Assembly (NCBI GenBank): GCA_029258915.1
Contig: JAPDJU010000005.1
Coordinates: 1-64,000, forward strand
Length of the DNA stretch: 64,000 nt
From: Thermoproteota archaeon
Lineage (GTDB): Archaea; Thermoproteota; Thermoprotei_A; EX4484-217-1
Direction: 5' to 3'
The translations under genes were made by a program, and so were the position numbers. The notes beneath the pieces were generated by a model, which was not told where the DNA came from, ran no database searches, and was given only the letters and a program-made list of their open reading frames with translations. Numbering within the stretch: the stretch's first letter is position 1; each line of letters opens with the position of its first letter. Shown one piece after another: positions 41,707 through 45,338 of this stretch.

Positions 41707-42318
41707 TTGTCTAAGTTAAAGCTTAAATTTCTAACACTAACTTGGGACGATGTGCAGCAGTTATCATATAAAATATGTGATCAGATACTAAAAGAGAATT
41801 TCAAACCTGACGTCATCGTAGGGATTATGCGTGGAGGGTGGATTCCTGCAAGAATAGTACTAGATATATTGGATGTAGAAACCTTAGCAGCATTGGAAAT
41901 AAAATTTTATAAGGGTATAGGAGAAGTCAAAGAAAGACCTATACTTACTCAACCACTCATAGTTAATATAAGGGATAAAAAAGTGTTAGTAGTGGATGAT
42001 GTTGTTGATACAGGTAAGAGTCTTTCAATAGCTGTCGAAACACTTAAACTTTACGGTCCTCAGCAAATTAAAACCGCTGCTTTAGTTGTAAAACCCTGGT
42101 CCATAATAAACCCTGACTTTTACGCTTTAAAAACAGATGCATGGGTTATATTTCCATGGGAAATCAGAGAGACCGTGAAAGAAATTCTTAAATCGTTAAA
42201 TATAAGTGTAAAAGAGGTAAAAAGCGTAAAGAAGGTAGCTAACCTTATATCGGAACAAACAGGGATAAAGATAAACCATGTTATAAGAGCTCTGGAAATC
42301 TTGAGGAAAGAACAATGA
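41707..42318 (+). CDS. Phosphoribosyltransferase (COG2236, purine salvage type)
   Basis: 203 residues. The PRPP-binding motif VLVVDDVVDTGKSLSIAVETL and the N-terminal VGIMRGGWIPARIVLD place it among hypoxanthine/xanthine-guanine-type phosphoribosyltransferases of archaea. It joins a purine base to PRPP. TTG 41707 lies 7 bases after AGGTG and starts the protein. A C-terminal 50-residue helical extension is present. The next gene, cgi121, overlaps by 4 bases, so the two are translated together. It may use purines taken up by the ABC importer at 47-52 kb. Confidence 0.85.
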   Translation: MSKLKLKFLTLTWDDVQQLSYKICDQILKENFKPDVIVGIMRGGWIPARIVLDILDVETLAALEIKFYKGIGEVKERPILTQPLIVNIRDKKVLVVDDVVDTGKSLSIAVETLKLYGPQQIKTAALVVKPWSIINPDFYALKTDAWVIFPWEIRETVKEILKSLNISVKEVKSVKKVANLISEQTGIKINHVIRALEILRKEQ

Positions 42319-42881
42319 CTCTTGTAATAAACTATAAGGAAAAAAATAATTTGATCATAGCTGTAAGTCTTTTAGAAGTAGGTAAAGAAGTAAATATAAA
42401 TAAGATTATTAAAAGTCTAGGCCAAGTAGAGGACAATTTATGGGTACAACTAGTAAATACATACGCTGTTTTCTCCATAAAACACTTGCTCCTATCATCA
42501 TACATATCATTGAAAAAATATCTAAACAAAGAACTGATCACTCAAAATCCTCACATAGAACTTTTAGTAACGCTTACAGCAAAGAGGCAGATAAAAGAAG
42601 CTTTAAGATTAGCCGGTATATCTGAAACGGTAAAAGAAGTTTTCTTGGTAGTATTAGCTGTAAATAAACCTGTAAAACATGTAATTGAAGTTTTAAAGTT
42701 TTTCATAGAAAACCATGGTTTAAAGGAAAAAGACATATCTAAATTTACTTACAACATGGAAGCACCGCTAATCTGTAACATTACTAGTAAAGAGATAGAG
42801 TCAACTATTGGCTTGTCGAGTACTGAAAAAATAGAAAAGAACGTGCTAATGAAAGTTTCAAGTGTTTATCTGAAGCCCTGA
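42315..42881 (+). CDS. cgi121: KEOPS complex subunit Cgi121
   Basis: 188-residue protein of the KEOPS complex that helps make t6A on ANN-decoding tRNAs and binds tRNA. The family features are LLLSSYISLKKYLNKELITQNPHIELLVTLTAKRQIKEALRLAGI and the C-terminal domain. Overlap of 4 bases with the phosphoribosyltransferase gene (ATGA). Sequence is divergent from eukaryotic Cgi121, but the H-I-E-L-L...A.RQI.EA motif is characteristic. Confidence 0.82.
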   Translation: MTLVINYKEKNNLIIAVSLLEVGKEVNINKIIKSLGQVEDNLWVQLVNTYAVFSIKHLLLSSYISLKKYLNKELITQNPHIELLVTLTAKRQIKEALRLAGISETVKEVFLVVLAVNKPVKHVIEVLKFFIENHGLKEKDISKFTYNMEAPLICNITSKEIESTIGLSSTEKIEKNVLMKVSSVYLKP

Positions 42882-42997
42882 TTAATCGTTGTAAACAAAC
42901 AATGGTGCTGTCTTGTTAAACGTTATGATTAAATATCACGATACCTTTAAATATACAAATTTATTCCAAAAAGATGTAGCACGGGAGGTGTACGGTA

Positions 42998-43081
42998 TTG
43001 TTCTTTGAAGAAGAGGAATGGTGGGAGGAAGAGGAAGAGCTTTGGGAGGAAGAAGAGGAAGAAGAATGGGAGGAATGGTAG
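42998..43081 (+). CDS. Glu/Trp micropeptide of 27 residues
   Basis: Not recognised. TTG 42998 starts a frame ending at TAG 43079-43081. The product is M-F-F, then Glu runs of 4, 5, 7 and 2 residues broken by Trp at positions 8, 9, 16, 24 and 27 and one Leu at 15: 18 Glu, 5 Trp, net charge about -18. A GGAGGTG box (42984-42990) is exactly 7 bases before the TTG, matching other starts here, and a TATA-like TTTAAATA lies near 42949. Repetition could also make a chance purine run, but the codon pattern GAA/GAG/TGG is steady. The next gene is the TFS-like protein 29 bases on. It could bind a basic partner. Confidence 0.6.
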   Translation: MFFEEEEWWEEEEELWEEEEEEEWEEW

Positions 43082-43110: not shown

Positions 43111-43395
43111 ATGGAATTTTGTCCTAAATGTGGTAACTTAATGGTTCCGGTAAGAAAGCATGAAAAAACAGTTCTCAAATGCAGAGCATGCGGTTATGAA
43201 TTAGAGAAAACACAAGTAGACTATAAGATCTCTCACCATGTAGGGGAAAGTAAACACGTTATAACTTCTAAAGTTTCAGAAGAGACAGGGAAATCTTTGA
43301 GAAGAAGTGAAGAAAGAGAAATGTTACAAGAGTATTACGAGGTTTTCTTAGAAACATTTAGCGAAGAAGAAAGTGGTAGTGAAGAGAGCTCTTAG
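43111..43395 (+). CDS. TFS/RpoM-like protein with a single zinc ribbon
   Basis: 94 residues. The first 25 residues (FCPKCGNLMVPVRK, then CRACGYE) match the N-terminal ribbon of transcription factor S and RPA12-like subunits. The usual C-terminal ribbon that reaches the polymerase active site with DE residues is absent; instead there is a helical, Ser/Glu-rich acidic tail ending SEEESGSEESS. Cleavage-stimulating activity is therefore not expected. It follows the Glu/Trp micropeptide by 29 bases and may share its mRNA. Confidence 0.7.
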   Translation: MEFCPKCGNLMVPVRKHEKTVLKCRACGYELEKTQVDYKISHHVGESKHVITSKVSEETGKSLRRSEEREMLQEYYEVFLETFSEEESGSEESS

Positions 43396-43535
43396 CTATC
43401 AGCTTTCAAATTTAAATCATCAACCAGGAAGTTTCTTAGCCGTCACCACTCATCATCTAGTTTTTCTAAACTATTCACTTACAGCTCAAGTATATGAAGC
43501 TATATGAACAACATTCCACTAGGTGTCTAAGCAAG

Positions 43536-45338
43536 ATGGTTAGAATAGCAACCATAGATAAGGATCTGTGTAGACCAAGGAAATGTAATTTAGAGTGTAT
43601 AAGGTTTTGCCCTATAAATAGAACTGGAACAAAGGCTATCGAAATTAATGAAGAAGCAAAAAAACCAGTAATATACGAAGAAATATGTATAGGATGCGGA
43701 ATATGCGTTAAAAAATGCCCATTTAAAGCAATAAATATTGTAAATCTACCTGAAGAATTAGAAACAGACCTTATCCATAGATACGGTATTAATGCGTTTA
43801 AACTTTATAGATTACCTATTCCTAAGCAGAAAATGATTACGGGAATTGTAGGGAAAAATGCTACAGGAAAAACAACTGCTTTAAAAATACTTTCAGGAAA
43901 ATTAAAGCCAAATTTAGGTAACCTTGAAAAAACCCCTGAATGGGATGATATAATAAAGTCTTTTAGAGGTACAGAACTGCAAACCTATTTCACAAGACTG
44001 GTAAATGGGAAGATAAGGACAATACTTAAAATACAATACGTTGATGCAGTACCAAAGTATCTTAAAGGAGAAGTAGGTAAGCTATTAATTAAAATAAATG
44101 AAAGAAACATAGTAAACGAACTAAAAGACGATTTAGGCCTCACGAAAGTTTGGAATAGAGAATTAAAAGTACTTAGTGGTGGCGAATTACAAAAATTCCT
44201 GATCGCTGCAACGTTATCTAAAGACGCTGACGTATACATGTTTGATGAGCCATGCAGTTATCTTGATGTTTATGAGCGTATGAGAATAGCTAAAGTGATA
44301 AGGAAGTACACTGTTGATAAGGGTAAAACAGCCATAATTGTGGAGCACGATATTGCAATCTTAGATTACCTATCTGACTTAGTTCACGTAATATATGGTG
44401 TTCCAGGAACATATGGCATAGTCTCGCATCCCTATGGAGTAAAATCAGGAATAAACTTCTTCCTAGATGGATTCTTACCTGATGAAAACATGCGTATCAG
44501 AGACACTCCGATAAGATTCCATGTAAAACCTCCAACTATTGCTTGGCCCTCAGAAATGGAGCTTATTAAGTGGACTGAAACACTTGTTAAATTGAATAGC
44601 TTCGTACTCAAGATTTCGAAGGGAAGCATACATAAGGGTGAAATTGTAGGCATCCTAGGACCCAATGGTATAGGTAAAACAACATTTGTAAGAACCCTTA
44701 TAGGCGAAATAAAACCTGTAGAAGGTACAGTATATTCATTTTCTGAAATAACTATGAGCTATAAGCCGCAATATGTTTCAACATATTATGCTAAGTTTAA
44801 AGAATATAAAGTAAGTGAAGTATTAAAGCTCATTTCTCAGGTTTCTGAACCTCCTAACTGGTTTAAGAAAGATGTTATTAGGAAACTGGGTGTAGACAGG
44901 TTATATGATAGATACATTGGAGAATTAAGTGGAGGAGAACTGCAGAAAATAGCTATAGTGGCATGTTTATTAAAAGAAGCAAAAATATATCTGCTGGATG
45001 AACCCTCAGCTTATTTAGATGTCGAAGAAAGACTTACTGTAGCTAAAGCAATAAAGAATGTTATTGAAATGCGTGAGGCAGCCGCATTTGTGGTTGAACA
45101 CGATATAATACTTCAAGATTACTTGGCACAAACATTAATGGTTTTTAGGGGTAAGCCTGGCATTGAAGGTTATGCTGAAGCTCCTATGGGCCTTAGAGAA
45201 GGTATAAATGTTTTTCTTAAAGACGTTGGCATCACCTTTAGGCGTGATGCGAGAACTAAAAGGCCTAGAGTAAATAAAGAAGGTAGTTACCTCGATCGTT
45301 TACAGAAAAGATTAGGAGAATACTATTACGTTGAATAA
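43536..45338 (+). CDS. ABCE1 (Rli1), ribosome recycling ATPase
   Basis: Splits ribosomes after termination or rescue, with Pelota (20605). 600 residues. Two 4Fe-4S clusters: CRPRKCNLECIRFCP and CIGCGICVKKCP. NBD1 Walker A GKNATGKTT and signature LSGGELQKF; NBD2 Walker A GPNGIGKTT and signature LSGGELQK; hinge regions in between. The frame reaches 43494, but ATG 43536 (MVRIATIDKD) agrees with the family start. All catalytic residues are present. Confidence 0.96.
   Translation: MVRIATIDKDLCRPRKCNLECIRFCPINRTGTKAIEINEEAKKPVIYEEICIGCGICVKKCPFKAINIVNLPEELETDLIHRYGINAFKLYRLPIPKQKMITGIVGKNATGKTTALKILSGKLKPNLGNLEKTPEWDDIIKSFRGTELQTYFTRLVNGKIRTILKIQYVDAVPKYLKGEVGKLLIKINERNIVNELKDDLGLTKVWNRELKVLSGGELQKFLIAATLSKDADVYMFDEPCSYLDVYERMRIAKVIRKYTVDKGKTAIIVEHDIAILDYLSDLVHVIYGVPGTYGIVSHPYGVKSGINFFLDGFLPDENMRIRDTPIRFHVKPPTIAWPSEMELIKWTETLVKLNSFVLKISKGSIHKGEIVGILGPNGIGKTTFVRTLIGEIKPVEGTVYSFSEITMSYKPQYVSTYYAKFKEYKVSEVLKLISQVSEPPNWFKKDVIRKLGVDRLYDRYIGELSGGELQKIAIVACLLKEAKIYLLDEPSAYLDVEERLTVAKAIKNVIEMREAAAFVVEHDIILQDYLAQTLMVFRGKPGIEGYAEAPMGLREGINVFLKDVGITFRRDARTKRPRVNKEGSYLDRLQKRLGEYYYVE

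Follow-up and report, generated by a model that had tools for sequence, protein, structure and literature searches.

Several described systems bear a partial resemblance to the small Glu/Trp (E/W) protein that we report here. In bacterial SSB, a larger DNA-binding protein, the SSB-Ct tail is a run of acidic residues ending in a single terminal aromatic, while trp leader peptides are short open reading frames with tandem Trp codons. DSS1/Sem1 is longer than the E/W proteins and mixed in composition. Like them, it is a small acidic protein with spaced Trp and Phe residues, and it docks into folded partners; its disordered ubiquitin-binding motif (DisUBM) has at least two aromatics, preferably Trp, with two to three residues between them in an acidic context (PMC9381478). 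The NTA of eIF3j/Hcr1 is, like the E/W peptide, a short acidic stretch around Trp; in yeast, the acidic motif comprises W37, D38 and EEEE40-43, and its Trp is seated in a hydrophobic pocket of the eIF3b-RRM (PMC2824034). Hcr1 directly binds ABCE1/RLI1 (PMC5737393), and eIF3j/Hcr1 may modulate the ABCE1 ATPase (PMC7196836).

The E/W gene lies in a 64,000-nt stretch of DNA from a Thermoproteota archaeon (the window), on the forward strand at 42998-43081, and encodes 27 residues (MFFEEEEWWEEEEELWEEEEEEEWEEW) between a TTG start and a TAG stop. Its product consists of 18 Glu, 5 Trp, 2 Phe, 1 Leu and 1 Met, which bears out the nearly all Glu/Trp composition given in a preliminary description of this DNA, and has a net charge of -18. 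The Shine-Dalgarno sequence GGAGGTG (42984-42990, forward strand), 7 bases before the TTG, and a TATA-like promoter element, TTTAAATATA (42946-42955, forward strand), about 50 bases upstream of the start, are likewise present as first described; the spacing of this putative element suits an archaeal TATA box followed by a short leader. Trp residues do stand at positions 8/9, 16 and 24, as listed there, but the list omitted the C-terminal Trp27, the most conserved Trp of the family. This ORF is the sole match to an E3-W-x-E3 codon pattern in the window's own genome.

In a congener (G001), the block tatcacgatacctttaaatataca, which holds the TATA-like element, is identical in sequence, and the flanking intergenic DNA has diverged. 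The congener retains the TTG start and the Shine-Dalgarno sequence, here 8 bases 5′ of it, and the coding part shows zero amino-acid replacements, synonymous GAR changes, one in-frame codon deletion and a different stop codon. Independently of any E/W pattern, relatives of the neighbouring TFS-like gene were fetched first and the surrounding DNA was then read. Among 29 other relatives from whole genomes, 13 had an ORF of the same composition in the flank of that gene, as did 18 of the 22 best loci taken from named genomes. Some of these ORFs are upstream of the TFS-like gene on the same strand (MFMFEEEEWWEEEEEEEWWEEEEEEWRKL and MRLIEEEEWWEEEEEELWEEEEEWEEEW, for instance), others are on the opposite strand (MIWLEEEWWEEEEEEEWEEEEEWWEEEEEW, with similar cases in Staphylothermus and in Sulfolobales MAGs), and Methanomethylicus carries an ORF of this type, MLHMEEEFEDDWSDEESDEDWPDEDGEEWPDDDDDETDEDEEW; in many homologues, an SD-like motif precedes the start by 6-8 bases. 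Using ABCE1 as a second anchor revealed additional members in genomes missed by the pattern (L228, L235 and L238, for example). It also revealed acidic Phe versions in family f3 (L252, L256), in which Trp is replaced by Phe (MKSKKETDEELDEDFDEDFDEEDFEDDFDEEF...) at the same site before the TFS-like gene and ABCE1. The preliminary description had proposed a real coding micropeptide and named lack of conservation of its start, box and Glu/Trp pattern in relatives as one possible refutation; all of these, as well as the Shine-Dalgarno sequence, are kept, and relatives that were retrieved independently show the same frame ahead of the same neighbour. On these comparative grounds, we regard the ORF as a real gene and not a chance ORF.

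ORFs of the same kind, 18-60 residues long, are spread through Thermoproteota, as a rule with a single locus in each genome. They usually end in EEEW-stop, and D, F or L substitute some residues in some families. The codon pattern matched 20 of 60 near relatives and its reversed control none; a looser pattern, part of whose matches are other acidic proteins, was found in 150 of the 229 genomes of the class, and 178 of 397 genomes in the phylum have pattern matches. Families that escape the strict pattern often carry Asp/Phe variants such as MEEDWEEIEEEDWEEIEEEDWEEDEW and VFEEDWEEEFEEFEEEEDWEEEEDWEEEW. (Family labels are arbitrary, and taxon names were taken from titled loci or marked as inferred.) Upon inspection, two pattern matches in family f18 proved not to be small E/W genes. 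Judging from this distribution, the gene is conserved through almost all Thermoproteota, usually just 5′ of ABCE1.

The E/W proteins have no relative in the profile and PDB collections searched, in agreement with the earlier statement that no such family was known. Pfam and NCBIfam profile searches gave zero matches up to E 10, and a PDB sequence search gave nothing usable (one chance match to a viral nucleoprotein, E 0.43), although low-complexity queries weaken the profile test; a literature search found no publication on such a family. Members may nevertheless be present as unnamed hypotheticals in annotated protein databases (UniProt/nr). By sequence, the microprotein thus appears to be of a new kind, every known kind considered being an analogy only; should all acidic-aromatic docking proteins be counted together, the E/W protein would be a new form among them that stands alone. 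For instance, it shares an acidic tip and terminal aromatic with SSB-Ct, but in the E/W case the tip is the entire protein.

The codons argue for selection on the protein. Across 99 distinct E/W cores, GAA (1147) and GAG (987) are both frequent and TGG occurs 485 times, while Lys, Arg and Gly codons made of purines are nearly absent (AAR+AGR 2, GGR 11, 13 in sum), as would be expected if the protein, and not a purine-rich RNA, is what is selected; the loci found by pattern are biased within the 7-8 matched codons and unbiased beyond them. Trp is the last residue in 79 of the 99 cores. The GARGAR runs do look like SD sequences, and one could imagine a purine-rich, SD-like decoy acting at the RNA level, or a low-complexity ORF that arose by chance. 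We consider this scarcely credible, and rejected both forms, given the free third positions of GAA/GAG, the near lack of purine Lys, Arg and Gly codons, the in-frame indel and solely synonymous changes relative to the congener, and the reversed control pattern without matches.

The preliminary description also placed the Trp residues about one heptad apart on one helix face. In 98 cores, the strongest Trp periodicity is at 5 residues (z = 6.2), with no rise at 3.5-3.6 (z = -2.0 and -1.3), which does not support a one-face heptad helix, and we rejected that arrangement. Single-sequence AlphaFold2 modelled a pure E/W member as a helix (pLDDT 92.5) and gave no structure for a member containing D and P (pLDDT 58.6), although such models carry little information for these compositions. 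The picture that we prefer is a multivalent ligand that is flexible, or helical only under some conditions.

Such a ligand invites comparison with DSS1/Sem1, and it could be an acidic-aromatic disordered protein of that type, binding a ubiquitin-like modifier or an OB-fold or proteasomal partner. The composition fits the disordered ubiquitin-binding motif of Dss1 (PMC9381478), W-EEE-W is found in many members, and some mix D, F and W as Dss1 does, for example EEDWEEEFEEF in f9 and EDDWSDEESDEDW in Methanomethylicus. Furthermore, 10 families have, no more than 4 kb away, a gene for a ubiquitin-like MoaD-type protein, in some cases with a GG end, but a shared cluster explains this link equally well. 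The E/W proteins differ from DSS1/Sem1 in their nearly two-letter composition and Trp end; they have no DSS1-like tail. Steps of 3-4 between Trp residues occur 47 times, but the commonest step, 5 (80 times), exceeds the DisUBM optimum. Searches for DSS1 homology gave zero Pfam matches and nothing meaningful in the PDB, a test that low-complexity queries weaken. Overall, we find this reading improbable, and both Dss1 and eIF3j/Hcr1 are, as far as sequence allows us to judge, analogies of working rather than of membership.

In the window, all on the forward strand, a phosphoribosyltransferase gene (41707-42318, Pfam PF00156), which belongs to the same conserved cluster and is within 4 kb in 13 families, is followed by the gene for Cgi121, a KEOPS subunit (42315-42881, Pfam PF08617, E 2.8e-12), then the E/W gene, a gene for a 94-residue TFS/RPB9-like single zinc-ribbon protein (43111-43395, Pfam PF02150, E 1.3e-13), and that for ABCE1/Rli1, the ribosome-recycling ATPase (43494-45338, start probably 43536; Pfam Fer4_RLI, Fer4 and two ABC_tran stretches). 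The TFS-like protein scores 44.9 bits against TIGR01384, below the cut-off of 64.75, and of the two ribbons of a full TFS (N-terminal RPB9 and C-terminal TFIIS), the PF02150 ribbon alone passes its cut-off. It is thus a single-ribbon protein with an acidic C-terminal tail that differs from full TFS. It had been called unusual, but it is widespread in the class, with matches in 59 of 60 relatives. A second match falls in a 121-aa frame at G000:C8.

Some families, but not all, have the TFS-like gene alongside the E/W gene, and it is not constantly adjacent. At E 1e-5, there was no TFS-like match in genomes of f21, f22, f26, f28 and f31, nor in one genome of f17, with sensitivity limited by distance. 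Given families that have the E/W gene without a detected TFS-like gene, the latter is not an obligate partner, and RNA polymerase was rejected in that role on the same grounds. The initial suggestion of a basic partner such as RNA polymerase or a ribosomal factor is therefore upheld in part: a peptide this acidic could plausibly have a basic partner and a ribosomal factor agrees with the linkage to ABCE1, the most persistent neighbour, but RNA polymerase is disfavoured on the grounds just given.

Among 95 E/W loci in 36 families, ABCE1 is the next same-strand gene, with or without an intervening TFS-like gene, in 51 loci and 22 families, at a distance of at most 140 nt in 33 of these 51; in 12 of the 36 families, ABCE1 is absent within 4 kb. 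The genes upstream vary, including those for isoaspartyl-peptidase-like, SAH-hydrolase-like, ribose-5-phosphate-isomerase-like, Sua5-like and glycosyltransferase-like proteins (named by eye). The ancestral order was likely phosphoribosyltransferase and Cgi121 (with THUMP-like and Sua5 genes on the opposite strand), then E/W, TFS-like and ABCE1, and it is still largely visible in f19, f40, f42 and f43. By its gene order, the E/W gene belongs to, or descends from, an ancestral translation cluster, and ABCE1 is its most persistent same-strand neighbour.

A short ORF with Trp codons and its own Shine-Dalgarno sequence 5′ of TFS and ABCE1 might also suggest a regulatory leader peptide, acting through Trp/Glu attenuation or as a uORF on the downstream gene. 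An attenuation leader would always lie upstream on the same strand. In f4, in f7 and in some members of f10, the E/W gene and its neighbours are on different strands, and we rejected a leader for this reason. In contrast to trp leaders, it is an independent, Glu-rich gene of varied orientation, with its own conserved promoter and no Trp-synthesis genes among the neighbours seen, and its E/W content is maintained wherever it lies; a leader role of any kind is thus very improbable.

The cluster also raises the possibility that the partner belongs to the KEOPS/t6A pathway, with the acidic peptide mimicking RNA on basic Cgi121 (or Sua5/MtaB) and so regulating tRNA access. Cgi121 has a median pI of 8.5, is adjacent to the E/W gene in 31 loci of 8 families and lies within 4 kb in 21 of the 36; it is also within 4.2 kb in 20 loci where the next same-strand gene is not ABCE1. 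Sua5 is within 4 kb in 7 families, and an MtaB-like methylthiotransferase gene adjoins the E/W gene in f7, but both were named by reading sequences, not by family search. Moreover, only families of a single class have Cgi121 immediately adjacent, and in f4 the E/W gene and Cgi121 converge from opposite strands. The E/W-ABCE1 pair is kept without Cgi121 within 4.2 kb in 12 loci of 7 families, and f22, f26 and f41 retain ABCE1 but have lost the association with Cgi121. We consider this reading unlikely, though somewhat less so than that of a DSS1-like protein.

We tentatively propose instead that the E/W peptide is a docking peptide in its own right, acidic and Trp-bearing, that serves the ABCE1/30S recycling machinery. 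As a small soluble multivalent ligand, it would be drawn to a basic surface by long-range attraction of its Glu run, and its Trp residues, the C-terminal one above all, would dock into shallow hydrophobic pockets. The target could be ABCE1 itself or its binding surface on the 30S subunit, and the peptide would tune ABCE1 binding, ATP hydrolysis or release in recycling and re-initiation; in eukaryotes, the acidic Trp region of eIF3j/Hcr1 may act similarly. The kept linkage, the charge of the peptide opposite a basic ABCE1 (net charge +20 in the window, median pI 8.4) and the eIF3j/Hcr1 precedent are consistent with this proposal. To our knowledge, eIF3 is absent from archaea, and the eIF3j acidic motif is documented to bind eIF3b, which counts against it. 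E/W members do place Trp within an acidic motif, as do the motif residues of eIF3j/Hcr1 (PMC2824034). Nevertheless, eIF3j, a eukaryotic protein, is larger and has another half that binds the 40S subunit; the partner known for its acidic Trp is the eIF3b-RRM, and homology was undetected with low-complexity queries against Pfam and NCBIfam up to E 10. The host protein of the eIF3j/Hcr1 motif binds ABCE1/RLI1 (PMC5737393), whereas the E/W peptide is tied to ABCE1 by genomic linkage, which may reflect inherited gene order. ABCE1 is also independent of the peptide in general, since no E/W ORF is found beside it in the Asgard, euryarchaeal and most Nitrososphaeria-like genomes examined.

Another basic partner, such as RNA polymerase, a ribosomal protein, a chromatin protein or a polyamine, with the ABCE1 linkage being inherited gene order only, is a rather unlikely alternative. 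The composition does not dictate a partner, and E/W genes in f14, f15, f34 and elsewhere are far from the cluster; the linkage, however, outlasts many different upstream genes in several classes. If the docking proposal holds, which we regard as possible but short of probable, archaeal ABCE1 gains a small accessory ligand, and acidic-Trp docking, as in eukaryotic eIF3j and DSS1, exists as a stand-alone archaeal gene product. It might then be an almost phylum-wide, ancient recycling (or t6A tRNA modification) factor of no more than about 20-45 residues, written in a nearly two-letter Glu/Trp alphabet, a suggestion we make with similar reserve. With no greater confidence, it could rank among the simplest dedicated protein cofactors, a counterpart in working of the eIF3j or DSS1 acidic-Trp motifs. 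In any case, a two-amino-acid protein beside a core translation factor, kept across most of a phylum, escapes the profile libraries searched, and its gene is easily overlooked by gene callers.

Outside Thermoproteota, the pattern matched 5 of 180 Asgard genomes. Of these matches, L386 is the tail of a longer ORF and L385 is not an E/W ORF; L384 and L387 (G568, G694) are free-standing ORFs of 50-80 residues built of E/W/P repeats, which lie isolated, with no ABCE1 within 1.5 kb on each side. The remaining match is on a contig of a "Njordarchaeota" MAG (B77_G9; L033/L388), which carries a Desulfurococcales-type cluster (PRT-Cgi121-E/W-TFS-ABCE1) whose TFS-like protein is 69% identical to that of the window, and it is probably a misbinned Desulfurococcales contig. 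In family f25 (L319, L320, L222-L226), a basic head (MSRRKTPPK or similar) precedes the E/W repeat, and the gene is not beside ABCE1. Finally, f14 has longer E/W repeats (L313, L314; EEEEEPWEEEEEW...) whose neighbours, identified by eye, are SPFH/NfeD-like and RNase Z-like; here the composition may have been put to a separate use.
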